A DNA stretch of 64,000 nucleotides from Fimbriimonas sp. GTDB taxonomy: Bacteria; Armatimonadota; Fimbriimonadia; Fimbriimonadales; Fimbriimonadaceae. Location of the stretch: assembly GCA_029866005.1 (NCBI GenBank), contig JARXAE010000003.1, positions 248,001 through 312,000 on the forward strand, given 5' to 3'. Position 1 is the first letter of the stretch; every line of letters starts with the position of its first letter. This document shows, one piece after another, positions 320 through 62,677 of this stretch. A program made the translations under genes and the position numbers. The notes below the pieces were generated by a model. It had not been told where the DNA came from, made no database searches, and was given only the letters and a program-made list of their open reading frames with translations.

Positions 320-2847
320 TTCCCCGGCATCAGAATGAGTGAGTTGAGCAGAAGCTTGTGGAGACCCGGCCACATCGCTCGCTCGCATGGGTCTTGGGCG
401 AACCAGATGATGTGCCCGCGACCCAGTGGCTCATCATGGAGCCAAACCGTGCCCTTGATCGCCTTCTCGGTCTCCTCGCCCCACATCCAACCAGTGAGGT
501 GCTTGGAGGTGTCGTCGTCGGCAAACTTCACCACTCCGCCGCCTTCTTTTCGAGCTTTAAAGAACGAGTCTCCATCGACCGGGACGGCGATTCGGTCGCC
601 GTCATAGCCGCTGGCAAGCAAAGATCGCTTATCAAGAACCGCCTGGAAAATTGCTCCTGGGATCGCCCGGGTTTCTGAGCTTCCAGTGAAGGAGGCAACT
701 CCGGAAGGGTTCTCACCATAGACGACCAGAACGCCGCCCTCTCGAACCCACTCTTTGACTTTGCTATTACCTAGAGCGCCAGAGCCGGAAGGGGCGATGA
801 TTGCTGTGTAATCACGAATCGCTGGGGTGCCCAGGGCGTTCGTCCCGAGCGAAACGAACGGGAGTTTGAACTCTTGCTCAAGAGTGAACCAGGTTCCACT
901 CACGCCCGTCATGTTCGCCCCGTTGCCGAAGACGACACCGATGTTTGGCGCTCGCAGACCGGCGAGCCGGTTCCCCGGTCCTTCACGTCCGGATTCGGGG
1001 TAGGAAGTTGTCAAAGGAGTGACCTCAGAGCCTCGTGAGAAAGTGGCTTTATTGATCAGCATGGCCGTTTCTTCGGGATTACGAAGGGCAAAGATGACGA
1101 ACGATCCTTTGGTGATTTTTTGATCGCCCAAGTTCATGTCAGCGGTTGCAACCGATACCTTCACGCCATCGGCAAGGAGATCCCGAACCGCCAAAACATC
1201 CTCCGAGTCGCGGTAGGCAATTACCCAGCCGAGGGGATTGTTCTGAACTTGAGGTGTCAAGGTCTGATACGCTTTAGTGGTTGGAACTTTCTCCGAGCCA
1301 TCAGTCCAATATGCCTTTAGGTCGTAAACAAATGGTAGCGCCCAGCCCGTCAGATCGTAGAACTCGGTACCCTCGGGACCTGGGTACTGCTCTCCTTCTG
1401 GAGCAGTCTTCTTTTTATTCATTTGGGCGTCGATAAACTCCTTCTCAAAATCGGAGACGCGCTCAAGGAGTGACTTGGCTACTGGGCCAAACTCCTGGCG
1501 AAGGTCAACGACTAGTGTGTAGGGGTCTAGTTCATACTTGTCCTTCTTATTCGTCCAAAGGTCGTTGGCTTCGAGCCGAGGGAGTTCGACTTTGCCACCA
1601 GAAGTCGGCTGTTGCTGTGCAAAGGCGTACTCGGAGACGACGCCAGTGCGCATGAAGTGCTCGTTCAACCGCTTGAGAACTCGAAGGTCTTTACTGGTGA
1701 TGTAAACCTTTTTCATCTCACTGCCTTCGGCGGTGACTGCGGCTTTCTTGTACTTCGCCCAGTCGGCGATGAGTTCGTCCCGCTTCTCAGCTGCGGTTTT
1801 GATGACGGCGAGGGCCGTGGTTAAATGCTTCGCTGCGCCTTCGCGCAAGGTCGAAATGGAGCCGTCATTACGGCTCTTCGACAAGACTTTGCCACCATCG
1901 GTTTCGTGCGTAATCCCAATCGCTCCGCTGAGTGCGGCGTGGGCATCGAGATAACAGGGAGCATAAAAGTCGAAATCCTCCTTGATAAAGTAACTCCAGC
2001 CTGTCTTGTCGAACGCTTTGGCACAAGCTCGACCGAGAATGTCCGTCCACTTATTGAGCCGGTCGCGGTCAACATTCTTGTTGATCGACATCGGGTTCGG
2101 TGGGAAGAAGTAGTTCTGAACCTGGCCGTGCTGATCGATGTAAATCTGCGGGCGTATCGACTGCATCAACTTGACTTCTGCACGAGTTTCCTTTTGGGAG
2201 AATGAGATGCGGTCGCGGTTCATGTCGAACCGGTAGTGGTTGTACCGTCCCCACAGAAGGTTGATCTCGTACGACTCAAACGCGCCGTCTTGGTAGTTCC
2301 CGCGGGCGTAGGAGTTGTAGCCAACCGCGAATCGCTCGTGACCGTCGGGGTTATAAACCGGATTCAGGATGACAACTGTATTTTCAAGGGCTTTAGCAAA
2401 TTCACCCTTTCCTGCGACGAGGTTGTAAAACAGCTCCATCCCTGACTCAAAAGATGCGGGCTCGTTACCGTGAATCGTCTGGTTGATCCAAACGATGGCA
2501 GGCGTATCCTTCGGCGGTTCAGTCCCGGTGGAACCTGCCTTCTCCATCGCCTTCTGTATCTGGTCCCATCTCGCGATGTTCTTGGGCGATGAAATCGCGT
2601 AGACACGAAGGGGGAAATTCTGGTTCGAGGTTCCGTAGTCAATCCGCTGAACCTTGCCACCTGCTTTTGCCGCGATGGCATCGTACACCCGCTCTTGCTC
2701 GCGGTAGGTCGTAATTCGTGAGCCAATCTTGTATCCCAAAACTGACTCAGGAGTCGGAACGCCTCCACTGAACGGTCCGTTGAGGTGCATATTCGCGTCG
2801 GCTTGGAGGTGACTGAGAAGAACCGTTGCGAGAGCGGCAGAGAACAT
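316..2847 (-). CDS. Secreted M14 zinc carboxypeptidase
   Basis: The 843-residue protein has a short hydrophobic N-terminus typical of a secretion signal (MFSAALATVLLSHLQADA). The M14 metallocarboxypeptidase domain follows, with the zinc motif HGNE at residues 126-129 in the context INQTIHGNEPASFE, then LNPVYNPDGHERF and DMNRDR. A further histidine in YIDQHGQVQNYFFPP is the likely third metal ligand. The domain occupies roughly residues 40-350. The remaining 500 residues contain glutamine-amidotransferase-like segments (DYTAIIAPSGSG, GGVLVVYGENP), as seen in large secreted M14 proteins of environmental bacteria. It probably trims peptides outside the cytoplasm. The ATG start is supported by a -10 hexamer six bases upstream and by the signal peptide. 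Confidence 0.88.
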   Translation of the reverse strand: MFSAALATVLLSHLQADANMHLNGPFSGGVPTPESVLGYKIGSRITTYREQERVYDAIAAKAGGKVQRIDYGTSNQNFPLRVYAISSPKNIARWDQIQKAMEKAGSTGTEPPKDTPAIVWINQTIHGNEPASFESGMELFYNLVAGKGEFAKALENTVVILNPVYNPDGHERFAVGYNSYARGNYQDGAFESYEINLLWGRYNHYRFDMNRDRISFSQKETRAEVKLMQSIRPQIYIDQHGQVQNYFFPPNPMSINKNVDRDRLNKWTDILGRACAKAFDKTGWSYFIKEDFDFYAPCYLDAHAALSGAIGITHETDGGKVLSKSRNDGSISTLREGAAKHLTTALAVIKTAAEKRDELIADWAKYKKAAVTAEGSEMKKVYITSKDLRVLKRLNEHFMRTGVVSEYAFAQQQPTSGGKVELPRLEANDLWTNKKDKYELDPYTLVVDLRQEFGPVAKSLLERVSDFEKEFIDAQMNKKKTAPEGEQYPGPEGTEFYDLTGWALPFVYDLKAYWTDGSEKVPTTKAYQTLTPQVQNNPLGWVIAYRDSEDVLAVRDLLADGVKVSVATADMNLGDQKITKGSFVIFALRNPEETAMLINKATFSRGSEVTPLTTSYPESGREGPGNRLAGLRAPNIGVVFGNGANMTGVSGTWFTLEQEFKLPFVSLGTNALGTPAIRDYTAIIAPSGSGALGNSKVKEWVREGGVLVVYGENPSGVASFTGSSETRAIPGAIFQAVLDKRSLLASGYDGDRIAVPVDGDSFFKARKEGGGVVKFADDDTSKHLTGWMWGEETEKAIKGTVWLHDEPLGRGHIIWFAQDPCERAMWPGLHKLLLNSLILMPGN

Positions 2848-2853
2848 TTCGCT

Positions 2854-2859
2854 AGTCTA
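2854..2859 (-). promoter_or_regulatory. Leaderless-type -10 element of the M14 gene
   Basis: On the minus strand TAGACT is followed by six bases and then the start ATG, which would place the transcription start at the ATG. It matches the TANNNT-N6-ATG pattern found repeatedly in this window. Confidence 0.55.
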
Positions 2860-3033
2860 TCCCAAGGGGAGTTTGCAGTGGTCCGGGAGTGGTGAGCACC
2901 TTGTGGATCCGCCCAACGCTGTAACTCCGAGCCTCAAAACTTGTCAAAGCCCCTGTATATTTGCCAGCAACCAGCCAATACCTCTTCTTGTGAGGCGGAC
3001 AACGCTTCAATTCAACCTGAGAAAGGGCATACG

Positions 3034-3300
3034 ATGAGTGAAAGGCGAAAGTCAGAGGGATTGGTAAGCATTAGCGTTGCCAGCAAGATCACAGCAGTGG
3101 AAATCCACACGCTGCGGTATTGGGAGCGCGAGTTCGAGGAGTTTCTCGAGCCAGTGCGCACAGACGGCGGTCAACGACGCTACCGACCAGAAGATATTCA
3201 AACTGTCTTCACGATCAAGCGACTTGTTCGCGACGAGATGTTTAGCATCGCTGGTGCCCGCAAGTTCCTTGCCAGGCAACGCAGCGAAAGAGCCGCATGA
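3034..3300 (+). CDS. Small MerR-family DNA-binding regulator
   Basis: The 88-residue protein consists almost only of a MerR winged-helix domain. VSISVASKITAVEIHTLRYWERE is the helix-turn-helix (quoted in parts: VSISVASKITAVE, then IHTLRYWERE), GGQRRYRPEDIQTV is the wing, and TIKRLVRDEMFSIAGARKFL follows. There is no effector-binding or dimerisation coiled coil, so it resembles sensor-less MerR proteins. I chose the ATG at 3034 because GAGAAAGGG lies at Shine-Dalgarno distance; a TTG at 2941 in the same frame would add an unconserved stretch. Its last codon overlaps the ATG of the glycosyltransferase gene (ATGA), so the two are translated together. The 186 bases upstream hold no other gene that I can see. 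Confidence 0.8.
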   Translation: MSERRKSEGLVSISVASKITAVEIHTLRYWEREFEEFLEPVRTDGGQRRYRPEDIQTVFTIKRLVRDEMFSIAGARKFLARQRSERAA

Positions 3301-5330
3301 AACCCCATCCGGTTGCCCAACAAGCCCGCGAGAGCCTTCACAAGCACCACTTTCTTGCCGCGCGTGAGCAACTTTCTATGGCTCTTGAAAAAGAGCCAAA
3401 CCACCCCGATTTGCTCTGCGAGCACCTTTTTGTCGAATCCTATTTCGGCCATGAAGAGGTCGCCTCACGGAGATTTGCCGAGACCGTCGGCGCCCCTCGA
3501 CACCATGATCTTGAACTGTTTCTGTCGCGTTACTACTATTGCCGCCAACTGGTGGCACAACGATGTTCCCGTGCCGACGTTTCGGCAGATGGTTGGCTAA
3601 TCTCCCATCCGTACACTCCTGAATCTGGCATCGGGGCTCGCATTAGTGCTTGCCTGATCGTGAAGAATGAGGAGGCAGTACTAGAGAAGTGCCTTGCTTC
3701 CCTGCAAGGGATCGTCGACGAAATCGTCGTCGTCGATACTGGCTCCACCGACCGGACGATGGAGATTGCCCGCCGATTCGGGGCTATCGAAGGGTACTTC
3801 GAGTGGATCAAAGATTTTTCTGCGGCTCGGAACCATGCGCTTTCGCTAGCAACCGGTGAGTGGGCACTTTGGATCGACGCCGACGAGCAACTCGATCCGT
3901 CGTGCCGCGAGGAGTTTGAGAAGGCGGTCTGCCGACCGCACATTGGTGGCTTTAGCATTGAGATTATCAACTACCTCGACGAATCCGGAACGATCACCGA
4001 GTTCGTTCACTCCCCAACGCGACTGTTCCGGCGGATCCCTGGCGTCCAATTCTCTGAGCCGATTCACGAGCAGATCACACCTTCATTAATCTCCCTTGGG
4101 CTCCCCTGGACTCCGCTGCCCGCTGCGAAAATACATCACGACGGCTACCGTGAGGAACTCGTTAAGTCCAAAGACAAAGTCAAGCGCACTCTTGAGATGC
4201 TTGAGAAGGCAGTCGGCGAGAACCCGAACGATCCTTTCCAACTCTTCAACTTGGCGAACACCCAGTTCGTCGCCAAAACCTACCAGCAGGCGGCCGAAAC
4301 TGCGGAGAAGTGCGTGCGAAATCTTGCCGCATCCGGAGCTGATTACGGCTGTTCGGCTTTCCAAATCTGGGCGACTGCCCTTGACATGGACGGACGATCC
4401 GAAGAAGCCGTAAAGGTATGCGAACTCTGTGCGGGCACTGCTTACGCAGGAATCGTTAATGAGTATCTCTGGTCTATCGCCCTCTACAACTTGGGGCGAT
4501 ATGACGAGGCCCATGCCGCTGTTGATCGCTGTCTAGCTCTCAGTTGGCCCGAAAACTTTGTTGGTGACAAAGCCATCGCCGACTTCCGCCGTTACGGTCA
4601 CAAAGCGATGATCTTTGGCGCCCAAGAGAATTGGTCAGATGCCCTCAAGTGGTACGACGAGACTCTTTCGCGACAGCCCGGTTTTCCACCCGCTCTTCTC
4701 GGACGAGGCGAGGCACTCTTGAAGATGGAGCGATTGGATGAGGCAGAACTCACCTACCGCATGGCGCTTTCGAACGCAAGTACTCGATGGGCTGCAGATC
4801 GAGGTCTCGGAATGATCGCCGCCGCAAGAGGAGACTTTTCAACCGCGAGTCGGCACTACAAGGCTGCCTGGGACGCCTCTCCAAGTGATCTCGGTCTATG
4901 GGAGTCGTGGGCGTTTGCGGTGATCAAGCTCGGTGACCCCGTCACGCCGTTCCAAATGCTCGAGAAGTATCAGCCTCTTGACGCCAATCTGCTCATGAAA
5001 TGGGCGGATGCACTCGCATCGGTCGGTCGGCTAGACGAGGCCCTCGGTTGTTTCCGACGGGCGATGACCCTCGCACCTCAAGATTCCAACATCCAGTTTA
5101 GTTGCGGAGACCTTCTGTACAAACTGGGCTACTATCCTCAGGCGGCGGAGATGTATCACGTCGGCCTACAGCTTCGGCCCAAGTTTGCTGAAGGCTGGTT
5201 TGTGCTGGGCAATGCGATGGCTCAAATGAACCTCGATCAGGGCGCCGAAGGGTGCTACCGACAGGCTTTGAACCTTGATCCCAATCACACGAAAGCAAAG
5301 GCAAACCTTAACGTAGTTATCGCGGCGTAG
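3297..5330 (+). CDS. GT2 glycosyltransferase with flanking TPR repeats
   Basis: This 677-residue cytoplasmic protein has three parts. Residues 1-65 are helical and TPR-like. Residues 115-330 form a family 2 glycosyltransferase (RISACLIVKNEEAVLEKCL, EIVVVDTGSTD at 142-152, and the DxD-type WIDADEQL near 192-199). Residues 330-677 are a run of TPR repeats with typical motifs such as DPFQLFNLANTQF and FAEGWFVLGNAMAQMN. GT2-TPR proteins of the SPBc2-like group transfer sugars from nucleotide donors, often to protein or cell-surface acceptors, and the TPR region may hold the acceptor. The start ATG overlaps the MerR stop. The acceptor cannot be deduced from the sequence. Confidence 0.85.
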   Translation: MKPHPVAQQARESLHKHHFLAAREQLSMALEKEPNHPDLLCEHLFVESYFGHEEVASRRFAETVGAPRHHDLELFLSRYYYCRQLVAQRCSRADVSADGWLISHPYTPESGIGARISACLIVKNEEAVLEKCLASLQGIVDEIVVVDTGSTDRTMEIARRFGAIEGYFEWIKDFSAARNHALSLATGEWALWIDADEQLDPSCREEFEKAVCRPHIGGFSIEIINYLDESGTITEFVHSPTRLFRRIPGVQFSEPIHEQITPSLISLGLPWTPLPAAKIHHDGYREELVKSKDKVKRTLEMLEKAVGENPNDPFQLFNLANTQFVAKTYQQAAETAEKCVRNLAASGADYGCSAFQIWATALDMDGRSEEAVKVCELCAGTAYAGIVNEYLWSIALYNLGRYDEAHAAVDRCLALSWPENFVGDKAIADFRRYGHKAMIFGAQENWSDALKWYDETLSRQPGFPPALLGRGEALLKMERLDEAELTYRMALSNASTRWAADRGLGMIAAARGDFSTASRHYKAAWDASPSDLGLWESWAFAVIKLGDPVTPFQMLEKYQPLDANLLMKWADALASVGRLDEALGCFRRAMTLAPQDSNIQFSCGDLLYKLGYYPQAAEMYHVGLQLRPKFAEGWFVLGNAMAQMNLDQGAEGCYRQALNLDPNHTKAKANLNVVIAA

Positions 5331-5337
5331 TTCGGGC

Positions 5338-5343
5338 TAAACT
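5338..5343 (+). promoter_or_regulatory. Leaderless-type -10 element, amidohydrolase operon
   Basis: TAAACT lies seven bases before the ATG at 5351. The same GGCTAAACTG string precedes the gene at 28693. A transcript starting here would have essentially no 5' leader. Confidence 0.45.
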
Positions 5344-5350
5344 GCCCCTC

Positions 5351-10099: not shown

Positions 10100-10105
10100 T
10101 ATCAT
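10100..10105 (+). promoter_or_regulatory. Leaderless-type -10 element of the ATPase gene
   Basis: TATCAT is followed by CCATCC and then ATG at 10112. The same CCATCC spacer occurs before the GH116 gene. This supports the ATG at 10112 over an in-frame GTG at 10082. Confidence 0.55.
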
Positions 10106-15694: not shown

Positions 15695-16741
15695 TTATTC
15701 CTCGATCAGGTACTCAGCGATGAGCTGGGCCGTGTCTCGCAGGGCCTCAATGTGCGTCCGCTCGTAGCCGTGCGACGTATCCACGCCTGGACCGATGAGG
15801 GCCACCTCGGCACCGCCGCCGCTGCGCCAGTAGGCGGAGCCGTCGGAGCCGTAGTAAGGGTAGATGTCAGGAATCAGCTCAATTCCTCGGCGGAAGGCGA
15901 GGCCGCGAAGCTTGTCGCTCAGGTTCTTGCTGTAGGGGCCGGAGGAGTCGGCGAGGCAGATCGAAACGTTGTACTCGGAACCAGCTTGACCTTCACCGAC
16001 GCACGCCATGTCGAGAACCAACATCTCGGCGAGATCGGCAGGAAGTGAGTCCATTCCGCCATGACCGACCTCTTCGAAATTGGAGAACAGAATGGTCGTC
16101 TTTTGAACCGGAGTAAGACCGCTCTTCTGGATGCCCTCAAGAGCGGCGAGGAGGCACGCGACGCAGGCCTTATCGTCCAAGAATCGCGAGCGAATGAAAC
16201 CAGACTCGCTGATTTCGGTGCGTGGGTCGAGGTTCACAAAATCGCCAACCGAGATCCCGAGGAATCTGGTCTCCTCGGCTTTGTTGGTGCGTTCGTCAAG
16301 GCGGACTTCGAGAGTATCGGCATTTCGCGCCTTCGTCCCAGCTTCTTTATTGACGTGGGCGGCTCCGTTCTCCAGAACAATCGAGCCGCGAATCTGGCGT
16401 CCGCTTGAGGCGACGATGGTGACCCCCTCGCTCTCAGTCGTTGGCCAGTTTATCCCGTTCAGAGCCTTCAGCTTCAGGCGACCATTGGGCTTGATTTCCT
16501 TCACCATGAAGCCAAGGGTATCAACATGGGCAGTCAGTGCTCGAGGAGCCGTGGAACGGAGGCCGTCAAGGTGTGCGATCAAGGCACCTTTCTTGGTTCG
16601 CTCAGTTGGAATTCCGAGACCCATCAGCTCAGATTCGATGAATCCGATACCGTACTCAGTGTCGCCAGTGGGAGACGGGGTGTTCAGAAGGTCCACCAGG
16701 AACCGCTGAAGGTAGTCGTTGGAAACTTCAAATCTCGCCAT
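15695..16741 (-). CDS. M42-family aminopeptidase
   Basis: This 348-residue cytoplasmic metallopeptidase has the M42 (FrvX/TET) pattern. Zinc ligands are visible in LTAHVDTLGFMV (His and Asp), RFLDDKACVACLL (bridging Asp), SNFEEVGHGG (Glu-Glu), VLDMACVGEG (Asp) and DTSHGYERTH (His). M42 enzymes form large tetrahedral complexes that remove N-terminal residues from peptides. The length is normal for the family. There is no signal peptide. It converges on the DUF1501 gene with only 3 bases between stop codons. A hairpin separates it from the ABC operon upstream. Confidence 0.92.
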   Translation of the reverse strand: MARFEVSNDYLQRFLVDLLNTPSPTGDTEYGIGFIESELMGLGIPTERTKKGALIAHLDGLRSTAPRALTAHVDTLGFMVKEIKPNGRLKLKALNGINWPTTESEGVTIVASSGRQIRGSIVLENGAAHVNKEAGTKARNADTLEVRLDERTNKAEETRFLGISVGDFVNLDPRTEISESGFIRSRFLDDKACVACLLAALEGIQKSGLTPVQKTTILFSNFEEVGHGGMDSLPADLAEMLVLDMACVGEGQAGSEYNVSICLADSSGPYSKNLSDKLRGLAFRRGIELIPDIYPYYGSDGSAYWRSGGGAEVALIGPGVDTSHGYERTHIEALRDTAQLIAEYLIEE

Positions 16742-16776
16742 GTTCGCGCCTGCTGAAAGGTTTACCCGGTTTTAGG

Positions 16777-16802
16777 ACGGAGCGCGGAGGTCCGCACTCC
16801 GT
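16777..16802 (-). terminator. Hairpin at the end of the ABC-2 operon
   Basis: ACGGAG (16777-16782) pairs with CTCCGT (16797-16802), extended by GCGG/CCGC after one mismatch, with a 4-base loop. It begins at the last base of the permease stop codon. No U-run follows, so its role as a terminator is inferred from position. Confidence 0.4.
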
Positions 16803-28665: not shown

Positions 28666-28671
28666 ATGCTA
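28666..28671 (-). promoter_or_regulatory. Leaderless-type -10 element of the GH116/E1 operon
   Basis: Minus-strand TAGCAT is followed by CCATCC and the ATG at 28659. It lies back to back with the -10 of the divergent gene at 28693, only 9 bases away. Confidence 0.55.
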
Positions 28672-28680
28672 CCCAGAGGC

Positions 28681-28686
28681 TAAACT
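28681..28686 (+). promoter_or_regulatory. Leaderless-type -10 element of the gene at 28693
   Basis: TAAACT, six bases (GATCAC), then ATG. Both divergent promoters are packed into the 33 bases between the two start codons. Confidence 0.55.
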
Positions 28687-34669: not shown

Positions 34670-34675
34670 AGGATA
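34670..34675 (-). promoter_or_regulatory. Leaderless-type -10 element of uxaC
   Basis: Minus-strand TATCCT, six bases, then ATG 34663. Any -35 region would lie inside the first codons of uxuA on the other strand. Confidence 0.5.
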
Positions 34676-38288: not shown

Positions 38289-38294
38289 TAAATT
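38289..38294 (+). promoter_or_regulatory. Leaderless-type -10 element of the M28 peptidase gene
   Basis: TAAATT, six bases (AGCGTC), then the ATG at 38301. Confidence 0.5.
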
Positions 38295-40990: not shown

Positions 40991-40996
40991 AGGGTA
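40991..40996 (-). promoter_or_regulatory. Leaderless-type -10 element of ftsY
   Basis: Minus-strand TACCCT, seven bases, then ATG 40983. Confidence 0.35.
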
Positions 40997-41035: not shown

Positions 41036-41041
41036 TATGAT
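41036..41041 (+). promoter_or_regulatory. Leaderless-type -10 element of the sugar ABC operon
   Basis: TATGAT, six bases (TCCGAA), then ATG 41048. This fixes the start of the binding-protein gene, whose frame is open further upstream. Confidence 0.6.
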
Positions 41042-45417: not shown

Positions 45418-46169
45418 GCAGCCAGCCCAACGCCCACACCAGCAATCGTCCCTGGCTCGGGAACCGCGGAGGGGTTGAGCGCCATCGCATAGACATCTCG
45501 GTGGGGACCCGCACTGATAAAGCTGGTGGTGGCCGTCGAGACGTTCACCGAATAGAAATCGCGATGGTAGAACGACATCGCATAAAGCGTCCCTGCCGGG
45601 TCAAAGTCAATGTCTGCGACATAGCTAAAGGCATCGGTGATCGGCATCATTCCGACCAGATTGGCCGTCGAAGATGAAGCCGGAACATGAAACAAGAAGT
45701 CATTATTCAGCCCTTGGCGAGCACTCAAAAAGATTGAAGAGTCCGAAGGGCGGAAAGCTACGCCAGTCACGATCAGGGCTGAAAGAGACGGAATCGAGTA
45801 ACTAGCGGTGATCGCCGAGGAGCCAAGATCATAAAAGAATAGCGACTGGTTTGCATTGCTGAATCCCCAGAGCCCATTGTTTGCCCAATCGAGATCACCA
45901 ATCTGTCCGAAACCCAGCGACCCTGCCGGAATCGAGCCGCTCGAAGTCGGCGTCCAGAGATTTCCGACGGGATCAGCGAAATAGTGAGTCCCTCCAATTG
46001 ACACTGCGAGGCTCTCTGAAGGCATGCCGGTGGTGAACACCAGCGGCTCAGTTTGAGTCGTCATGTCAACATTCCGAATCTGTTGGTTTGCAGAAAGAAC
46101 CTTTGCAAACGGAATCGAAAACGCAAGAGAGGAAGCACAGCCAAACAACGCAACCAAAGCAAATCGCAT
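45390..46169 (-). CDS. PEP-CTERM sorted secreted protein
   Basis: The protein (259 residues) has a signal peptide (MRFALVALFGCASSLAFS). A beta-propeller-like body repeats short strands such as GLWGFSNANQSLFFYDLGSS. The C-terminal sorting tag is VPEPGT, a hydrophobic stretch and RRRRSS. PEP-CTERM tags are recognised by an exosortase, so the protein is probably processed at the membrane and released to the surface or matrix. No exosortase gene is in the window. The start at ATG 46169 is chosen because TATAAC lies six bases upstream; ATG 46184 is an alternative. Confidence 0.88.
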   Translation of the reverse strand: MRFALVALFGCASSLAFSIPFAKVLSANQQIRNVDMTTQTEPLVFTTGMPSESLAVSIGGTHYFADPVGNLWTPTSSGSIPAGSLGFGQIGDLDWANNGLWGFSNANQSLFFYDLGSSAITASYSIPSLSALIVTGVAFRPSDSSIFLSARQGLNNDFLFHVPASSSTANLVGMMPITDAFSYVADIDFDPAGTLYAMSFYHRDFYSVNVSTATTSFISAGPHRDVYAMALNPSAVPEPGTIAGVGVGLAAYLRRRRSS

Positions 46170-46175: not shown

Positions 46176-46181
46176 GTTATA
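46176..46181 (-). promoter_or_regulatory. Leaderless-type -10 element of the PEP-CTERM gene
   Basis: Minus-strand TATAAC, six bases (GTGAGC), then ATG 46169. It differs from TATAAT at one base. Confidence 0.5.
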
Positions 46182-46200
46182 CATCTTCTGCCCAGATAGG

Positions 46201-49336: not shown

Positions 49337-50100
49337 TCGTTCACCGAGCTTCGTTTCGACTGGTGATTAAAGCCCCGAAGCGCCCATCGCTCGTAAGGAT
49401 GCGATACTCCTTCCTCGTGCACATCGTCCCCGGCATGCAGCTGAACCAACACCGTCTTCCGAGTTTCGTTCGAGCGGTTCGGCATCGATCCATGGATCGT
49501 GTAGTAGTGGAAGAACAAGACATCCCCCGGTTCTGCCTCAACGGGAATGGCGTTTTCGAGCGGATACTTGGCAAGAATCTCACTATCCTGACTCCGATAC
49601 GAAATGGGAAGGCGACCAAGTTTGTGAGTCCCAGGATAAACCCGTAAGCAACCCATCGCGTCGGTCGCCCTCGAGACATGGATGATTCCTGCGATCATCG
49701 TATCCTTAATCGTCGGAAAATGATCCCAATCCTGGTGCATCGGGAACGGCGCTCCGTTCTCGGCGGGTTTCTGAAACAGCTTGCTGTGGTGAAGAACAAT
49801 GTCCGGCCCAAGAATCGCCTCGGCAACATCCAAAAAGCCCTCGTGAAACAACGCCCGCGCCCAAGTTGCCGAGTATTTCTGGACGTTGTGAGTATGAGTC
49901 ACCACCGCGTTCTGAACCCCCATCCGCTCCATCTCGGGCCCGCCCCATTTCGCATTCGTCTCTTCACCAGAAGAAGTGATTTGTGCAACTATACTGTCAA
50001 AATCTTTCTCTAAACATTCAACTTCTTCGGACGAGAACACCCCCTTCGCCAAGTAATATCCGTCTCGCTCAAAAGCCTCTCTAATCTCCGCAAAATCCAT
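49333..50100 (-). CDS. PhyH-family Fe(II)/2-oxoglutarate-dependent dioxygenase
   Basis: The protein has 255 residues and the phytanoyl-CoA dioxygenase fold: an N-terminal EIREAFERDGYYLAKGVFSS, the iron-binding PFPMHQDWDHFP (His-x-Asp), VYPGTHKLGRLP, and the distal His in YYTIHGSMPNRSNETRKTVL with the 2-oxoglutarate Arg. Substrates in this family are very diverse. It is translationally coupled to the GH20 gene downstream, which suggests a link to a glycan or its aglycone. I chose ATG 50100 because TATTCT lies six bases upstream; a longer frame to 50184 lacks support. Confidence 0.88.
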   Translation of the reverse strand: MDFAEIREAFERDGYYLAKGVFSSEEVECLEKDFDSIVAQITSSGEETNAKWGGPEMERMGVQNAVVTHTHNVQKYSATWARALFHEGFLDVAEAILGPDIVLHHSKLFQKPAENGAPFPMHQDWDHFPTIKDTMIAGIIHVSRATDAMGCLRVYPGTHKLGRLPISYRSQDSEILAKYPLENAIPVEAEPGDVLFFHYYTIHGSMPNRSNETRKTVLVQLHAGDDVHEEGVSHPYERWALRGFNHQSKRSSVND

Positions 50101-50106: not shown

Positions 50107-50112
50107 AGAATA
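50107..50112 (-). promoter_or_regulatory. Leaderless-type -10 element of the PhyH-GH20 unit
   Basis: Minus-strand TATTCT, six bases (CGCATC), then ATG 50100. Confidence 0.5.
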
Positions 50113-50134: not shown

Positions 50135-50140
50135 TAAAGT
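50135..50140 (+). promoter_or_regulatory. Leaderless-type -10 element of the DUF1460 gene
   Basis: TAAAGT, seven bases (GAGTCAA), then ATG 50148. It is 22 bases from the divergent -10 of the PhyH gene. Confidence 0.35.
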
Positions 50141-52182: not shown

Positions 52183-52188
52183 ATCCTA
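52183..52188 (-). promoter_or_regulatory. Leaderless-type -10 element of the metalloprotease gene
   Basis: Minus-strand TAGGAT, six bases (GGATAA), then ATG 52176. Confidence 0.5.
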
Positions 52189-55279: not shown

Positions 55280-55285
55280 TACTAT
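55280..55285 (+). promoter_or_regulatory. Probable -10 element of the tmRNA gene
   Basis: TACTAT lies about 10 bases before the mature tmRNA 5' end. No clear -35 was found. Confidence 0.35.
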
Positions 55286-55295
55286 GTAGACAACT

Positions 55296-55648
55296 GGGGG
55301 CGTCAGGGTTCGACAGGACCGAAGCGACTCATCGTTGCGAGCCGTGGATTCTCGTTGGCCACGTAAAAAACGAGTAAAAAATAACTGCAAACAATAACTT
55401 TGCATTCGCAGCCTAAGTGCCGCGCATGAGCCAGTTCTGAGCCAGTAAGAACTGATCCTCGTGTAGCCAAATCTGGATCGCTAGGGCGAGCTTCTGTTCG
55501 TAGTAGACCCGGCTAAAAATAATCGGACTAAGGGTGCGCTAGGCGGTCTCGGCAGAGGCGCATCTCGAAAATTCAAACTGAGAAGACGCTCGTGGTAATG
55601 CTGGGAAGGCGGTTTTGGAAGGGAGTTCAATTCTCCCCGCCTCCACCA
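55296..55648 (+). ncRNA. ssrA: tmRNA with tag peptide ANNNFAFAA
   Basis: The 353-base RNA has GGGGGCG at its 5' end pairing with CGCCTCC (55638-55644), followed by A and CCA, which gives a seven-pair acceptor stem with one G-U. The T arm is GGGAG, TTCAATT and CTCCC (55621-55637). The conserved GTTCGACAGG follows the 5' end. The tag frame runs from GCA at 55387 to TAA at 55414-55416 and encodes ANNNFAFAA, ending in the Ala-Ala expected for proteolysis by ClpXP-like proteases. With SmpB it rescues stalled ribosomes. The encoded CCA and the single-piece order are the standard form. Confidence 0.95.
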
Positions 55649-55967: not shown

Positions 55968-57041
55968 TTACAGCAATGCGAGAAGCTTCTGATGCTCTTC
56001 AGCCGTGTGCATTGGGAAGTTCGCTACTCGGATGTTATGGTCCTTCAACTCGCCGTAACATGCCCCGGTATATATCCCGTGCTCTCTCTCCAGCCGAGCC
56101 CGAAGCTCGTTCGCATCTTCCTGAACGTTGACCGCGAACAGAGTTGGTGACTTGTATCGATCACTCGTGACCATGCGCTTCGCACTCGTCTTCTCAAGAG
56201 CCGCATAAAACGCCGCCGCCCGCTCTTCAATCCCCGCTCGGAGAACATCGAGCCCAATCGACTGGTACTTCGCCGCGCACTTGTTCAGCAAGTAAATCGC
56301 CAAAACGTTCGGCGTCTCCGCCGTCATCGACTTCTCCGCAAACGTTTGAACCCGAGAGAACGCGTGGAACGAGCCAATGCTTTGGGTCTTCTCAAGCTGC
56401 CGCGATCGCTCCATCGCCCGCTCACTCACCACCACAACGCTCAAACCAGCCGTCGAGTGGAAGCCCTTCTGGACCGAGAACATACAAACATCAACCAAAC
56501 TCCAATCGAGTTGGCAGTGAGGCATCGCCGACACACAATCCACCATCAAGAGTTTCTCCGGGTACTTGCGACCAAGAGCATGAATCTGCTCTTCAGGAAT
56601 CCAAAGGCCGATGCTCGTCTCGTTGTTGACAACGCAAATCGCCTCTGCCGTCTCCGGAACTTCAACGGCGGAAAAGTCGCCATCAAACTTGTGATCATAG
56701 TCCCATCGCACCGCATTCCGGCCCAGCCATCCGGTGTACTGGTGCCAGCGCATCGCAAACTCGCCGCCGACCATGTGGAAAGACTCCTTAGCCGTCAAGC
56801 ACTCCATCCCCCGCTCCCACGCCTCGTTGCTCGAGTTCATGAAGATAACGTGGTGGGTGTCCGGAAGCTTCAAAAGATCCCGAATCCGATCCCGAGTCTC
56901 GTCAAAAAGGTTAAAGAACCATTTACTCCGGTGGCTCTGCCAAACCGCGCCTTCGGCAACAGCTTCCTGAAGCCACTGACCCATCTCAGGGTGAACTTTT
57001 GTCGGACCGGGAGCGAGAACGGTTGGAGTCATGGTGATCAT
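55968..57041 (-). CDS. serC: Class V aminotransferase, probable phosphoserine aminotransferase
   Basis: This 357-residue PLP enzyme has the class V pattern: VLAPGPTKVHPEMGQWLQE at the start, VIFMNSSNEAWERGMECLTA, VVNNETSIGLWIP, LLMVDCVSAMPH with the PLP-contacting Asp, and SVQKGFHSTAGLSVVVVSE with the Schiff-base lysine. Alone it could be an alanine-glyoxylate or serine-pyruvate aminotransferase. Adjacency to a SerB-SerA fusion makes the phosphoserine aminotransferase step the most likely role. ATG 57032 is an alternative start. It is 56 bases downstream of serB-serA on the same strand. Confidence 0.75.
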   Translation of the reverse strand: MITMTPTVLAPGPTKVHPEMGQWLQEAVAEGAVWQSHRSKWFFNLFDETRDRIRDLLKLPDTHHVIFMNSSNEAWERGMECLTAKESFHMVGGEFAMRWHQYTGWLGRNAVRWDYDHKFDGDFSAVEVPETAEAICVVNNETSIGLWIPEEQIHALGRKYPEKLLMVDCVSAMPHCQLDWSLVDVCMFSVQKGFHSTAGLSVVVVSERAMERSRQLEKTQSIGSFHAFSRVQTFAEKSMTAETPNVLAIYLLNKCAAKYQSIGLDVLRAGIEERAAAFYAALEKTSAKRMVTSDRYKSPTLFAVNVQEDANELRARLEREHGIYTGACYGELKDHNIRVANFPMHTAEEHQKLLALL

Positions 57042-57097
57042 TTTCTGGTTAAGGCAAGCTCAAGTCTTGCCCCAATCAATTCTACGAAGTATATCTC

Positions 57098-58987
57098 CTA
57101 CGGATTCAAAACCCTGAGTTTGATCGTCTCCGGAACCTCGCGAATCTCCGCCAGCAGCTCGTCCGAAACCTTATCCGCAATATCCGTCACCAGGTATCCC
57201 ACCTGGTCCCGGGTCTTCAGGTTCTGCCCAACAATATTCACTCCGTGACGAGCAAAAATCGCCGACACCGAAGCCACGATCCCTGGCACATTCCGGTGAA
57301 CATGCAGAATCCGCATCCCCTTCTGAATCGGCGGCAGATACAAATCTGGCAGCGAAACCGACCCCAGCGTCTCACCTTGCGCCACAAACTTTCGTAGTCG
57401 TGCAGAGACGTAAGCTGCAATGTTCCGCTGAGCTTCCTCGGTGCTGCCCGCGATATGAGGAGTCAAAATCACGTTTGGCAAGCCGCGCAGGACCGATTCA
57501 AACGGCTCGTCATTCGACTTCGGCTCAGAAGGGAAGACATCGATCCCCGCCCCACCAACTTTTCCAGAGAGCACTGCATCGCGCAGAGCCGAGTAATCCA
57601 CAACTGAGCCCCGCGACAGGTTCAAGAAAATGACCCCATCCTTCATCATTTCGAACTCCTTCTTGCTGATCAAGTTCTTGTTCGTAGCCCGCCCATCAAA
57701 GTGAACGCTGATAACATCCGACTGCTTCAGCAGGTCGTGCAACGACTGAATCCGCTGAGCCTTGCCGTGCGATAGCTTCTCGGCGATGTCGTAATAGATG
57801 ACCTCAAGCCCAACGCTTTCTGCCAGAACGCTCAACTGAGACCCAATATTCCCGTACCCAATGATCCCGAGCTTCTTTCCGCGAATCTCATGAGCACCAA
57901 CCGCCGATTTAGTCCATTTGCCTTCGTGCAAAGCCGTCGAGTGAGCAAACACTCGGCGCATCAAGACCATCGCCTCGCCCAACGCCAGCTCGACTACGCT
58001 CCGAGTGTTACTAAACGGCGCATTGAACACCGCAACTCCGCGAGCCGCTGCCGCCGCCGAATCCACATGATCCGTCCCAACGCTAAAAACGCCAATCGCC
58101 ATCAACCGCTTCCCGGCCTGAATCACCCGCGCTGGAATCTTCGTCCGAGTCCGAACTCCGATGATCGAAACGTCCTTGATCCGCTTGACCAGCTCCTCCT
58201 CGCTCAACTTCTCCTTAACCTGCTCAACCCGGTACCCCTCGGCGGCAAGGCTTTCCGCCGCATCCGAGTCAATCGAATCCAAAAGCAGAATATTGATCTT
58301 CGACCGAGGGAAGCTATACCGAGTCGGCAAATCCGACTCCGCCAACACCTCATCAATTCCGTAAACCACCGAGTCTGCCTTCGCCGCAACCGCCTCCCGA
58401 TAAACTGTCTCCGCGTAGCAGAAGAACCGCGAAGCCGCCCCCGCTTCCCTTATCTGGTAGTCAGTGAAGCCATCTCCCACGACCCACTTCGGACCCTCGT
58501 AAGCAATCGACTCCACCACCGGAATCTTCCCCCCGGCTTGCGACAAAGGATTCTGATCATCAAACCCAATGATCTTCCCGTCCTCATCAAACAAGAATGA
58601 GTTCGCATAAACCCGAGTGTTCGGAATATCCAAAAGTGCCGCAATCGGCGCCACAAACTCTGCGAACCCCCCCGTCACGACATAGAGTCGATCCGCAACC
58701 GCCTTCAATTGCTTCTTATGCGCCGAAAAACTCGGCGAGAGAGACTTCTTGAGCTTCTTGGCCAGCGTCTCTAGATGCCCCTGGTTCGCGTCCAGAAGCC
58801 GAACCCGTTCCGCCAAAGACTCCCGGAAGCCAAGCTTCCCCTCCATCCCTAGCTTCGTCAGCTCCTCAATCCGAGCCAGCCGCTCATCGCGTTCCGTGTG
58901 CTTAGCCAGCGAAATCTCCGCAAGGGCATCGAGCGATTCAACGGTGACAATCGTGCTGTCAAAATCCAAAATTAGGATGGGCTTCAT
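57098..58987 (-). CDS. Phosphoserine phosphatase-phosphoglycerate dehydrogenase fusion
   Basis: This 629-residue protein joins two enzymes of serine synthesis. Residues 1-215 are a HAD-type phosphatase of the SerB kind: DFDSTIV (Asp8, Asp10), LYVVTGGFAEF and WVVGDGFTDYQI. Residues 230-550 are phosphoglycerate dehydrogenase: IIGYGNIGSQL for NAD, Arg459 in NLSRGSVVD, Glu488 in DVFPSEP and His511 in LTPHIAGSTEEAQ. Residues 557-629 are an ACT domain (MRILHVHRNVPGIVASVSAI), which in SerA mediates serine feedback inhibition. With the aminotransferase downstream, the two genes cover the three-step route from 3-phosphoglycerate to serine. Confidence 0.93.
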   Translation of the reverse strand: MKPILILDFDSTIVTVESLDALAEISLAKHTERDERLARIEELTKLGMEGKLGFRESLAERVRLLDANQGHLETLAKKLKKSLSPSFSAHKKQLKAVADRLYVVTGGFAEFVAPIAALLDIPNTRVYANSFLFDEDGKIIGFDDQNPLSQAGGKIPVVESIAYEGPKWVVGDGFTDYQIREAGAASRFFCYAETVYREAVAAKADSVVYGIDEVLAESDLPTRYSFPRSKINILLLDSIDSDAAESLAAEGYRVEQVKEKLSEEELVKRIKDVSIIGVRTRTKIPARVIQAGKRLMAIGVFSVGTDHVDSAAAAARGVAVFNAPFSNTRSVVELALGEAMVLMRRVFAHSTALHEGKWTKSAVGAHEIRGKKLGIIGYGNIGSQLSVLAESVGLEVIYYDIAEKLSHGKAQRIQSLHDLLKQSDVISVHFDGRATNKNLISKKEFEMMKDGVIFLNLSRGSVVDYSALRDAVLSGKVGGAGIDVFPSEPKSNDEPFESVLRGLPNVILTPHIAGSTEEAQRNIAAYVSARLRKFVAQGETLGSVSLPDLYLPPIQKGMRILHVHRNVPGIVASVSAIFARHGVNIVGQNLKTRDQVGYLVTDIADKVSDELLAEIREVPETIKLRVLNP

Positions 58988-59064
58988 GGGTCATGTCGAC
59001 GCCCAGCCCCATTGCTTTTCGTCTGGCTCTCAGGTTACCGGAACCAGTCAAACCCAACATAGGT

Positions 59065-59070
59065 TAGGAT
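59065..59070 (+). promoter_or_regulatory. Leaderless-type -10 element of the PIG-L gene
   Basis: TAGGAT, six bases (AGAGCA), then ATG 59077. Confidence 0.5.
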
Positions 59071-59076
59071 AGAGCA

Positions 59077-59892
59077 ATGAAGCGCAAGGTGCCCATTTGG
59101 AAGCGGATCGTCCGATCCAGCCTCATGTTATTAGGCATCGTCGGCGGACTCTATGCCTGGAACCCCCAGCGCCTCCACTACTTCGCCAAGCCCGTCACCC
59201 TCCCGAAAACCGACCCCGAATCCGCAAACCTCTTTAAGAAGGGAAACCGAGTCACCGTAGTCGTCGGTCACCCAGATGACGCCGAATTCTTCATCTCCGG
59301 CACCTTGCTCAAACTCCACCAAGCCGGAGCTGCAATCACCCTCATCGTCGTCACCGACGGCGACAAAAGCTACTACCCCTGGTTCCTCACCAACGCCGAA
59401 GAGAACCGAAAAGTCCGCCGCGCCGAACAAGAAGAAGCCTCCAAAGCCTATGGCGGAAAAGTCGTCTTCCTAGGTGGCCCCGATGGCCGCTACGACCCTG
59501 ACGAAAAAGAACTCCGGGCCAAACTCCTTGCTGCCATAAAGGAGTCCAAACCTGACTACCTGCTCTCATTCGACGACGAGTACGTCCTCAAAGTCCAACA
59601 CCGCGACCACGAAAACTCCGGCCGCGCCACGCGCGAACTCGCCCCCCAAACCGGCACCAAATGGCTCCTCCTCTTCGCCACCTACGCCCCCACTTACTGG
59701 GTCGACACCAGCGGAACCTGGGACAAACGCGCCCAGCTCCTCGCTGTCCACAAAAGCCAGTTTTACGGCGAAAAGCTCAGCCTCATCCAAGGCACCGTCC
59801 TCGACAAAGCCCTCAGCGAAGGCGAGAGGATCGGCAAAGAGACCGCCGAAAGCTTCCGCGCTATTCCGCTGGATCGGTCACCCGCTCGATAA
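59077..59892 (+). CDS. PIG-L-family deacetylase with N-terminal membrane anchor
   Basis: This 271-residue protein has one N-terminal hydrophobic helix (about residues 12-27) after a basic start (MKRKVPIWKR), then the LmbE/PIG-L domain: TVVVGHPDDAEFF with the zinc ligands His65 and Asp68, RRAEQEEASKAYG, FLGGPDGRY, and VQHRDHENSGRATREL with the third ligand. The family removes acetyl groups from N-acetylglucosaminyl compounds. The membrane anchor suggests action at the outer face of the membrane. It converges on the photolyase gene with a 32-base overlap. Confidence 0.9.
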   Translation: MKRKVPIWKRIVRSSLMLLGIVGGLYAWNPQRLHYFAKPVTLPKTDPESANLFKKGNRVTVVVGHPDDAEFFISGTLLKLHQAGAAITLIVVTDGDKSYYPWFLTNAEENRKVRRAEQEEASKAYGGKVVFLGGPDGRYDPDEKELRAKLLAAIKESKPDYLLSFDDEYVLKVQHRDHENSGRATRELAPQTGTKWLLLFATYAPTYWVDTSGTWDKRAQLLAVHKSQFYGEKLSLIQGTVLDKALSEGERIGKETAESFRAIPLDRSPAR

Positions 59893-61324
59893 ACCGATCC
59901 GCCGCCCCAAAAATCCGCTCCCGTCGCGCAGGCTCCAGCCGACCCAACCCGCCTACCATCATGCTCATCCGGTGGTTCGACGCAAAGAAGTCCAAGTGCC
60001 GATCAATGAACCGCCAATACAGCCCATCCCAAACGTCGCACCACTCGCCCTTCGGGTAGTCCGACATCTTCAGAATATACGCCGACCCACTCAGATAAGG
60101 CTTTGTCGCAAAAATGCCCCCATCCGCAAACTGGCTCATCCCCAGCACGTTCGGCGCCATCACCCAATCCGCCGAGTCGATGAACATCTCCATGAACCAC
60201 CGATAGCTCTCTTGCGGGTCCACCTCGCACATCAGCATCGCCGACCCCAGCACCATCAGCCGCTCGATGTGGTGGCAATAAGCATGCTTCGCCGTCCGCT
60301 TGATCACCGTATCCAAAGGCAAAAGCCCGGTCGTCCCGTCGTACCAGCACGCCTTCAACTTCCGCCGATGCTCAAAAAAATTCGGCTCCGCGTCGTACCG
60401 AACCTGATTCTCCCGCCCGATCCAAAAGATGAATTCGCGCCACCCAACCACCTGCCGCACAAACCCCTCAAGCGAGTTCAAAGGAATCCCCTTACAATGA
60501 AGAGCCTCCGAAACAACCTGAGCCGGAGTCAACAATCCCGTGTTCAAATACGGCGTCAAAACGCTATGAAAAAGCGTCCGCTCGCGCTGCGGAATCGCGT
60601 CCTCATAATCCCCAAACCTCTCCAGCCGCTCCGCCAAAAACTCCGCCAAAGCCGCCCGAGTATCCCCATGGGTCACCCCATACCGAAACTCCGAAGCCTT
60701 CCCCGGATGCGAACCGAACAACCCAGAAACCTCCGAAATCACCTGCCGAGTGACCGAATCCGGCTCAAATCCACCCACTGACGGCGGCAAAACCGACTTC
60801 GGCAACGCCTTCCGGTTCTCCTCGTCAAAGCTCCACTTCCCGCCCGTCGGCTGGCCGTCCTCCATCAAAATCCCCAATCGCCGCCGCTGTGCCTGATAGA
60901 AATCACCCATCAACCGCCGCTTCGATCGACCCGCATACGCTTCCCAATCCGACAAAGAAGTCAAGAACATCGGGTTCGGAACCACCACCAACTCCACACC
61001 ACTAGCCGCCGCCCAAGGCCGCAAAACGTCCCGCAAAAAGAACGCATCCGCGGGCTCATAAACCCAAACCTTCTGCGGAGCCAACCCAGAAAGCCGCTCC
61101 ATCATCGACCCGTTCTGCTCGGTGATCGTCGAATACAAAACCTCCCGATCAACCGAAGCCGCAAAGTGCCGCATCGCCGAGAAAAACAGCACCAACTTCT
61201 GCTGATGATGCCGCCACCGAGTCGCCAGCCCCACATCCTCGTGCATCACCACCGGAACCCCCAAAGGCATCCCCGGAAGCCCATCAAAGAGCTGATCCCC
61301 CAGCACCAAAATCAACTCTTTCAT
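59861..61324 (-). CDS. Photolyase/cryptochrome family protein, FeS-BCP branch lacking cluster cysteines
   Basis: This 487-residue protein belongs to the bacterial (6-4) photolyase (PhrB, FeS-BCP) branch: LILVLGDQLFDGLPG at the start, GWREFIFWIGRENQV, KHAYCHHIERLMVLGSAM and NVLGMSQFADGGIFATKPYL. In PhrB four cysteines hold a 4Fe-4S cluster. Here the segment after KMSDY is shortened and has only Cys429 (PKGEWCDVWDGLYW), and the position of the first cluster cysteine appears to be Thr339. A cluster is therefore unlikely. The FAD- and DNA-facing motifs remain. I prefer ATG 61324 to a TTG at 61345. It is cotranscribed with the Y-family polymerase, 27 bases upstream. Confidence 0.87.
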   Translation of the reverse strand: MKELILVLGDQLFDGLPGMPLGVPVVMHEDVGLATRWRHHQQKLVLFFSAMRHFAASVDREVLYSTITEQNGSMMERLSGLAPQKVWVYEPADAFFLRDVLRPWAAASGVELVVVPNPMFLTSLSDWEAYAGRSKRRLMGDFYQAQRRRLGILMEDGQPTGGKWSFDEENRKALPKSVLPPSVGGFEPDSVTRQVISEVSGLFGSHPGKASEFRYGVTHGDTRAALAEFLAERLERFGDYEDAIPQRERTLFHSVLTPYLNTGLLTPAQVVSEALHCKGIPLNSLEGFVRQVVGWREFIFWIGRENQVRYDAEPNFFEHRRKLKACWYDGTTGLLPLDTVIKRTAKHAYCHHIERLMVLGSAMLMCEVDPQESYRWFMEMFIDSADWVMAPNVLGMSQFADGGIFATKPYLSGSAYILKMSDYPKGEWCDVWDGLYWRFIDRHLDFFASNHRMSMMVGGLGRLEPARRERIFGAADRFIERVTDPAE

Positions 61325-61351
61325 CGAACCTGTACTACGAGTCAAGCAAAA

Positions 61352-62665
61352 CTATCGTGCCACCCCGCGCCAAGTATCCAGCCGCTCCCCACCCATATAA
61401 CTCTCAATGTCAAAAGCGTGGTCATCCGCCCCCTCCACAAAAAGCTCCACTTTCTGAAACGCAATCCTTTCCTCCGCTGAATGCCGCCCCTGCCCCATCC
61501 CGCCCACAAAAACCGAATGCTTCCCAAACCGGTGGTTCATCTTGTCCACCGCATGGCTAAACTCCGCCCGCTCCGGAGTCTGGTCGAAAAGCGAAGGAGT
61601 CACATATTCCGGCCGCAACAGCCCCGTAAACACAATCCCCACCTGCAACGGCCGCTCAAAATCCGCCGACGGCCACTCCGAAGCAATCAGCGAAGTCACC
61701 GTCACCGAGTCCTGACAAGGCGGCACCGGCACGGTCACCTTCCAAGAGCGACGCATCCCCTTCACATATATCCCCATGTGCGTCGCCCAAAGGTTCGACT
61801 GCCGCAATCGCGCACAAGCCTTATGCGCCAACCGCATCATCACTTCCCGAGCGCCTTCCTCGGTTCGTAAGTCCGGCGGCAAAACGTGCGAATGCGACAA
61901 CGACTGATCCTGTCGGGTCTCGTAATCCACCTCGTACCCATGCAAATTGAACCAGTACCGCTCCCCACAAACCGACCCAAACGCCCGCCGCATCTCTTCC
62001 GGCGATAGCGCCAACAATTGCCGCGAAGAAAACACCCCGGCCGCATTCAGCCGCGCCTTCATCCGCTTGTTAATCCCGCAAAAATCGGTCAGCTTCAGCT
62101 CATACAGCCGTGAGGGAATATCGTCGGCGGTCAAAATCACCAGCCCGTCCGGCTTCATCATGTCCGTCGCCGTCTTCGCCAAAAAGTGGTTCGTCGCAAT
62201 CCCAAACGAAGCCGTCATGCACTCGCCGACGTTCTCCCGAATCGCCTTCTTCATCTTCAGCGCAAGCTCCCGCGCCACCGCCGGAGGAGCCTCGGTCTCC
62301 AACAACCGAAACCGCATCTCATCGATCGAACACACCTTGTCCACCGGCAGAACCGACTCGCAAACCTCGACAATCCGCTTGTGAAACGCCGTGTAAGCCG
62401 CGTGATTCCCCTTCACAATCACCACGTCCGGGCAAAGCTGTCTCGCCAGCCCAATGTTGGTGCCGGTCTTGATCCCAAACCGTTTCGCCTCATAAGAAGC
62501 CGCAATCGCCGAAGTGTTATCCCCCGCCGTCGGAGCCACAATCAAGGGCCGCCCCCGCAACGACGGATCCAACTGCTGCTCGCACGAGGCAAAGTAAGCA
62601 TTCAGGTCCATAAACATCGACTTAAGCCGACTAGGAGGCGATATAGGTAGATATTGTTCTACCAT
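61352..62665 (-). CDS. Y-family DNA polymerase (DinB-like)
   Basis: This 437-residue protein has the Y-family catalytic residues: MFMDLNAYFASCEQQ with Asp20, and VCSIDEMRF with Asp115-Glu116. It also has the fingers segment IAASYEAKRFGIKTGTNIGL, a helix-hairpin-helix thumb region (LTDFCGINKRMKARLNAAGV) and a C-terminal little-finger domain ending about residue 400. It would copy past damaged bases. A TATAAT box lies six bases before the ATG, and an 18-base palindrome overlaps codons 2-7. The operon with the photolyase links two UV-damage functions. It could also be called Pol IV; I see no beta-clamp motif that decides this. Confidence 0.9.
   Translation of the reverse strand: MVEQYLPISPPSRLKSMFMDLNAYFASCEQQLDPSLRGRPLIVAPTAGDNTSAIAASYEAKRFGIKTGTNIGLARQLCPDVVIVKGNHAAYTAFHKRIVEVCESVLPVDKVCSIDEMRFRLLETEAPPAVARELALKMKKAIRENVGECMTASFGIATNHFLAKTATDMMKPDGLVILTADDIPSRLYELKLTDFCGINKRMKARLNAAGVFSSRQLLALSPEEMRRAFGSVCGERYWFNLHGYEVDYETRQDQSLSHSHVLPPDLRTEEGAREVMMRLAHKACARLRQSNLWATHMGIYVKGMRRSWKVTVPVPPCQDSVTVTSLIASEWPSADFERPLQVGIVFTGLLRPEYVTPSLFDQTPERAEFSHAVDKMNHRFGKHSVFVGGMGQGRHSAEERIAFQKVELFVEGADDHAFDIESYMGGERLDTWRGVAR
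62646..62663. promoter_or_regulatory. Palindrome overlapping the start of the DNA polymerase gene
   Basis: GGTAGA and TCTACC form a perfect 6+6 inverted repeat with a 6-base spacer. If transcription starts at the ATG, the repeat covers about +3 to +20, a classic repressor position. It may be a damage-response operator. It does not match a LexA box that I know. Confidence 0.5.
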
Positions 62666-62671
62666 AAGTTA

Positions 62672-62677
62672 ATTATA
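62672..62677 (-). promoter_or_regulatory. Consensus -10 element of the polymerase-photolyase operon
   Basis: Minus-strand TATAAT, six bases (TAACTT), then ATG 62665. It is the best -10 in the window. No good -35 lies at 16-18 bases. Confidence 0.65.

Follow-up and report, generated by a model that had tools for sequence, protein, structure and literature searches.

A G-preceded TANNNT box beside start codons of Fimbriimonas sp. points to -10-only promoters and leaderless or nearly leaderless mRNAs

Our analysis revealed that the hexamer TANNNT occurs above chance at -12 to -7 of start codons in Fimbriimonas sp., an uncultured member of Fimbriimonadales (Armatimonadota), concentrated by degree at the first genes of transcription units, and that box and spacing are conserved between species. 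The element was studied in a window, that is, a 64-kb stretch of DNA analysed as a whole and located at 248001-312000 of contig C20, and in 20 further stretches of the same genome (398 kb); together these make 462 kb, or 16.4% of a genome of 2.81 Mb in 38 contigs. We consider it highly probable, from the sequence evidence set out below, that the boxes belong to G-extended, -10-only promoters of the sigma-70 type that give rise to leaderless or nearly leaderless mRNAs.

An earlier note on the window had listed eleven genes with TANNNT-N6-ATG, one with TATAAC-N6-ATG at 46169 and three with TANNNT-N7-ATG, where N6, N7 and so on are the bases between TANNNT and the start codon. All 15 sites were confirmed in the window sequence, each as claimed. 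They are given here with their counterparts in relatives; G-, L- and f-numbers are working labels of genomes, loci and Armatimonadota families, and the reference G158 is a genome of the same genus.

2854..2859, minus strand: TAGACT, N6 to ATG 2847; box conserved at the same spacing in G158
10100..10105, plus strand: TATCAT, N6 to ATG 10112 (AAA_14/DUF4143 protein); at the same spacing TATAAT in G158 and TAAAAT in G001
28666..28671, minus strand: TAGCAT, N6 to ATG 28659; conserved in G158 and G001; the box at 28681..28686 lies back to back with it
28681..28686, plus strand: TAAACT, N6 to ATG 28693; kept in G158
34670..34675, minus strand: TATCCT, N6 to ATG 34663; kept in G158 and G001
38289..38294, plus strand: TAAATT, N6 to ATG 38301 (peptidase-like); conserved in G158 and G001; L030 has TAAAGT at this spacing
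41036..41041, plus strand: TATGAT, N6 to ATG 41048 (substrate-binding protein); G158 keeps the start as well as the box
50107..50112, minus strand: TATTCT, N6 to ATG 50100 (PhyH family); start not kept in G158
52183..52188, minus strand: TAGGAT, N6 to ATG 52176 (M6-like metalloprotease); TAAGAT-N6 in G001, TAAAGT-N7 in G006, none in G012
59065..59070, plus strand: TAGGAT, N6 to ATG 59077 (BshB-like deacetylase); outside the upstream comparison
62672..62677, minus strand: TATAAT, N6 to ATG 62665 (DNA polymerase IV-like); TATAAT-N6 in G109
46176..46181, minus strand: TATAAC, N6 to ATG 46169 (PEP-CTERM protein); TATAAC-N6 kept in G158
5338..5343, plus strand: TAAACT, N7 to ATG 5351; kept in G158
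40991..40996, minus strand: TACCCT, N7 to ATG 40983 (ftsY)
50135..50140, plus strand: TAAAGT, N7 to ATG 50148 (AmiA-like); kept in G158

The statement that the listed genes head transcription units stood except for 5351 and 46169, each of which follows a same-strand gene, at 20 and 31 bases respectively, and is not a clear unit head. At 50100, the G158 orthologue has its own ATG five codons upstream, preceded, in our reading, by TAGAAT-N7.

To guard against starts picked to suit a motif, gene calling relied on a codon-pair model that takes no account of the upstream sequence, in two callers of which the second was the better. A unit head was a gene with a divergent upstream neighbour or one separated from it by 60 bases or more, which infers units from gene order alone, and expected values were taken from the frequency of TANNNT 15–49 bases upstream of starts. 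With the better caller, TANNNT preceded 3, 23, 19 and 8 of the 221 heads at 5, 6, 7 and 8 bases, with 2.86 expected at each distance; 42 heads had it at 6–7 bases (5.7 expected) and 53 at 5–8 (11.4 expected). In the window, 7 of the 21 called heads had N6 and 2 had N7 (binomial p = 6e-9 against 2/64), and the other 12 had no TANNNT at 6–7. Outside it, the 200 called heads included 16 with N6 and 17 with N7 (p = 8e-15). The first caller agreed: among 64 three-base patterns at 50 distances, TANNNT at 6 and at 7 took the two highest ranks, with 22 and 16 of 220 heads and 3.5 expected each. Twelve settings of the start rule gave 22–27 heads at distance 6 and 12–20 at distance 7 over a background of 2.3–2.8, and when only the 28 heads with unambiguous starts were kept, the peak persisted (5 versus 0.4 at distance 6). 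In-frame ATGs within genes, taken as a control, had 19 N6 and 22 N7, or 41 of 2755. The computational check proposed in the earlier note, a count of TANNNT per distance at heads and at internal genes, was run on 462 kb and gave a peak at 6–7.

A raw count over the genome was of no such use: TANNNT-N6-ATG occurred 497 times versus 476 for the backwards pattern, without a useful excess, and the figure is uninformative because most ATGs are not starts. Raw counts for the genome and 20 relatives were dropped, since starts could not be separated from other ATGs.

The possibility that the pattern is due to chance, or to starts picked to suit the motif, draws on the fact that the better caller lacked five of the 15 listed starts: it replaced 41048, 50100 and 46169 by 41231, 50184 and 46184, respectively, and listed neither the gene of 52176 nor that of 62665; another calling run recovered 52176 and gave 62617 in place of 62665. 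Orthologues back 41048 and 46169 (G158), 62665 (G109) and 52176 (G001 and G006, not G012), and the alternative upstream ATG at 46184 is absent from G158. The motif-blind calls outside the window (33 of 200 heads at 6–7) and a box footprint held in 11 of 11 comparable genes refute this explanation, to which we give practically no credence. For 41048 and 46169, codon usage alone pointed elsewhere, and it is the box together with the G158 orthologue that favours these starts. Start-codon and promoter prediction in Fimbriimonadales genomes should reckon with a leaderless box.

A small open reading frame at 2941-3300 is MerR-like. Its start is probably 3034, because G158 has a stop upstream of that position. 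It overlaps the gene at 3297-5330 by ATGA, so that 3297 is operon-internal, although the caller listed it as a head.

Eleven of the 15 listed genes could be compared with G158 at a shared start. Bases 1, 2 and 6 of the box were identical at 33 of 33 positions, the sixth-base count including the C of TATAAC at 46169, present in both genomes, and the inner bases at 32 of 33. Identity also extended to the two positions just 5' of the box (22 of 22), so that the eight-base footprint (-2 to +5 relative to the first T) agreed at 87 of 88. The surroundings had drifted, with 39 of 69 bases identical in the spacer and 185 of 327 in the upstream region (Fisher p = 2.5e-13 for the hexamer versus the upstream region), and spacer length was kept in all 11 genes. 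The same profile emerged blind to the motif: in 14 called heads sharing their start with G158, identity was 0.93–1.00 at -13 to -10, 0.86 at -14, -9 and -8, and 0.36–0.79 elsewhere. Box and spacing are therefore conserved between species.

Another conserved stretch was seen before the gene at 15695-16741 (minus strand), where G158 is identical at about 40 of 45 positions ahead of the ATG (16742-16801) and no -10 box was found at the usual place. The reading frame may begin farther upstream, or the stretch may be a conserved leader sequence.

A role of the box as a regulator site or as some other signal in DNA or RNA, instead of a promoter, is compatible with this conservation, since any signal would show conserved sequence and spacing; the box's fixed orientation, its position relative to the start codon, its -10-like consensus, the drifted surroundings and the functionally unrelated genes that carry it make this very unlikely. 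The proposal of the earlier note that the hexamer is a -10 element is supported by its position, orientation, consensus, association with heads and conservation, with transcription predicted to start at the ATG or within about 3 bases of it.

An unseeded motif search in the 45 bases before heads returned gggTAaAaT, centred 6–7 bases before the start, with a log-likelihood gain of 147 versus 42 for one shuffled set. The mixing weight of the expectation-maximization model was dropped as a measure of the fraction of leaderless genes, as shuffled sequence gave a similar value (0.59 vs 0.54). Among the 53 heads with TANNNT at 5–8 bases, G occupied the three positions before the box in 43, 51 and 53%, and the fourth base of the box was A in 55% and T in 4%; before TANNNT farther upstream, at 121 places in the genome, G made up 24, 28 and 29% of the three preceding bases. 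This 5' preference for G is a feature missing from the earlier note.

The box-bearing genes have no consistent -35, and the canonical -35/-10 pair of sigma-70 promoters was not found with them. The 53 aligned sites contained no TTGACA at any of 16 spacings and one TTGAC, at 14 bases; TTGA 18–20 bases away, where a -35 would be well placed, occurred twice versus about 0.6 expected. In the 11 genes compared with G158, conservation was not raised at -30 to -4 of the box. The earlier note's remark that no consistent -35 was seen is thereby borne out.

The genome encodes three RpoD-like sigma factors (E 2e-68 or better; L283-L285) and two weaker matches, and none of the RpoD-like matches reaches the NCBIfam cut-off for RpoD_Cterm:

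C27:9568-10275: RpoD-like sigma factor
C24:10925-11605: RpoD-like sigma factor
C20:220837-221541: RpoD-like sigma factor

The best of them has His and Glu at what we take to be the places of H455 and E458 of E. coli sigma-70, residues that read the extended -10.

Since no consistent -35 is present, RNA polymerase would have to recognize these promoters by their -10 box and G run (roughly gg-TANNNT). A -10 element by convention occupies -12 to -7, so that N6 places +1 at the A of the ATG; transcription would begin there in N6 genes and one to three bases earlier in N7–N9 genes. The resulting leaderless or near-leaderless mRNAs would be translated without Shine-Dalgarno pairing, and operon-internal genes more often use Shine-Dalgarno sites. 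The divergent starts 28659 and 28693 are separated by 33 bases, and both boxes stand back to back in this gap, each kept in G158, which leaves little room for ordinary leaders. A second divergent pair, 34663/34693, has 29 bases between the called starts.

The earlier note had put the spacing at exactly six. Six is indeed the largest class, but N7 is nearly as common and the range extends from 6 to 9, with 9 in ftsY. It is possible, although we do not think it likely, that the box is a -10 element and that most transcripts carry a leader of 1–5 bases, strictly leaderless mRNAs being in the minority. Spacing 7 almost equals spacing 6 in this genome (19 vs 23 of 221 heads), and in 25 distinct box-bearing ftsY sequences of Fimbriimonadales the spacing is mostly 8 (11 sequences), 7 (7) or 9 (5), with 6 in 2; six nevertheless is the largest class in the own genome, in other Fimbriimonadales (36 vs 11) and in a Deinococcus control (10 vs 1). 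Spacing alone is not decisive here, because the start chosen by RNA polymerase can shift by a base or two.

The 25 ftsY sequences belong to 43 distinct upstream sequences from Fimbriimonadales, in which 0.8 would be expected to have TANNNT at 4–9 bases. The other 18, judged by eye under a relaxed pattern and with no control, had CATACT (10), other CANNNT at 6–8 (5) or TANNNT at 10–11 (3).

The box was found in other Fimbriimonadales as well, with 47 of 342 heads at 6–7 versus 6.6 expected (36 at 6 and 11 at 7) and the motif ggTA.AcT. G158 and G001 were excluded from this pool as too close. Its rows are not independent, as L012 and G006 overlap by about 20 kb and close relatives are included, so that the p of 1.7e-24 is too small; some pooled records are titled Chthonomonas or Chthonomonadaceae, and the kinship assignment was followed. 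Unseeded searches in single small samples (G008, G089, G001, G006, G109, G018, G020) gave mostly other patterns, and G158 did give TAaa.T. Outside the order, 12 genomes of 11 other Armatimonadota families had 13 of 515 heads at 6–7 versus 12.4 expected, with the motif aaAGGAGg; families f16 and f9 had been taken out of this pool after an excess had appeared in G031 and G024. With both included, 16 genomes give 41 of 737 versus 18.6 expected, so that Armatimonadota outside Fimbriimonadales are not uniformly boxless. Family f16 had 17 of 123 heads at 6–7 (3.6 expected), and its member G031 had 23 of 82 at 5–8 versus 4.7, with the motif GgTA.AAT; G055, of the same family, showed no excess (3 of 41 at 5–8 versus 2.5), though its ftsY has the box. 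By our reading, TANNNT precedes ftsY in all five f16 genomes sampled (L291-L294, L297), four with N6 and one with N9. Family f9 had a modest excess (11 of 99 versus 2.6 at 6–7) without a clear motif. The samples of f8 and f24 showed Shine-Dalgarno sites and no box (1 of 31 versus 1.4 in f8). In an FtsY tree, f16 forms its own clade (100/100), f8 adjoins Fimbriimonadales (96/86), and a clade of f8, f24 and Fimbriimonadales leaves out f16 (93/88); the deeper forks are weak. As for controls, 20 Paenibacillus loci (negative) had 3 of 210 heads at 5–8 versus 23.2 expected and the motif GGAGG, and Deinococcus plasmids (positive) had 10 of 67 at distance 6 versus 0.69, with 1 at distance 7. We suggest tentatively that promoters with only a G-extended -10 box right next to the start codon may be a main promoter class of Fimbriimonadales and may have been gained separately in f16, a proposal more doubtful than plausible at present. 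If it is true, Armatimonadota shows the switch between leadered and leaderless starts more than once, and the contrast between families would allow study of the switch between Shine-Dalgarno and leaderless initiation.

The use of Shine-Dalgarno sites is in line with leaderless starts at unit heads. The core was found before 40 of 105 internal genes versus 10.8 in control windows and before 31 of 221 heads versus 15.0; heads are thus poorer in it than internal genes. The 16S tail carries CACCTCCTT, an intact anti-Shine-Dalgarno. For the class Fimbriimonadia, a table of PMC10783764, in its flattened form, gives 25% Shine-Dalgarno genes.

Several observations weigh against our interpretation. Called operon-internal genes are enriched too (7 N6 and 2 N7, 9 of 105; p = 0.006), as are genes 16–59 bases behind a same-strand neighbour (5 N6 and 5 N7, 10 of 59), so that the contrast between heads and internal genes is a matter of degree; the excess scored with a position weight matrix is 22% of heads versus 10–11% of internal genes. 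The claim that operon-internal genes lack the box does not hold without exception, and Shine-Dalgarno sites are much commoner there than in heads. The box accounts for only about a fifth of called heads, as the 22% excess indicates, and most heads have neither box nor Shine-Dalgarno core, of which imprecise start calls explain a part. Among 12 divergent heads with unambiguous starts, TANNNT was outside the eight best patterns. Family f5, of the same order, is weak (9 of 100 versus 2.9 at 6–7) and has no such motif, and the relatives G089 and G109 are weak at 5–8 (4 vs 1.0 and 3 vs 0.9). In the Deinococcus control, the unseeded search gave a Shine-Dalgarno-like motif, not TANNNT. Finally, promoter activity of the box, transcripts that begin at the start codon and the translation of these mRNAs are what we infer from the letters of the genome.

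Two other features of the window were noted: a tmRNA gene at 55296-55648 with the tag peptide ANNNFAFAA, and a drop of the GC skew to about -0.22 at the right end (56001-64000).

This study also allows comparison with known promoters. Extended -10 promoters of E. coli (TGn-TATAAT) have G at -14 and little or no need of a -35. Of the 53 Fimbriimonas sites, 51% have G at -14, 53% have G at -13 and 13% have T at -15; the preference for G spans -15 to -13, without a preference for T at -15, and no leader would follow, in contrast to E. coli. In their main text, Zheng et al. (2011, PMC3160421) interpret a TANNNT that precedes the translation start by about 12 bp as the -10 box of leaderless (TA-led) genes, with a bacterial maximum in Deinococcus-Thermus and presence in 86 of 89 Actinobacteria. 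In the main text of Zhong et al. (2025, PMC12340547), whose scan covered the bacterial domain, TANNNT just before the open reading frame is the -10 element of about 30% of Deinococcus-Thermus open reading frames, with a spacing requirement. The stem Armatimon is absent from these two main texts (the supplements of PMC12340547 lay outside the search), and no report of leaderless genes or mapped starts in Armatimonadota was found by title in the open literature, supplements and subscription papers being outside this scope. The Fimbriimonas box thus belongs to a type of gene start already described elsewhere, no report of which was found for this lineage, and would bring leaderless expression to a phylum that has received little study. 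The Deinococcus-Thermus motif has been tested by experiment (PMC12340547), whereas the Fimbriimonas box is known from sequence alone. Compared with TA-led genes as described in the main text of PMC3160421, box and position are the same, and the 5' preference for G is a feature of the Fimbriimonadales genome; G stands directly 5' of the box in 46% of a small Deinococcus sample (13 sites), in 53% of sites in this genome and in 75% in other Fimbriimonadales.

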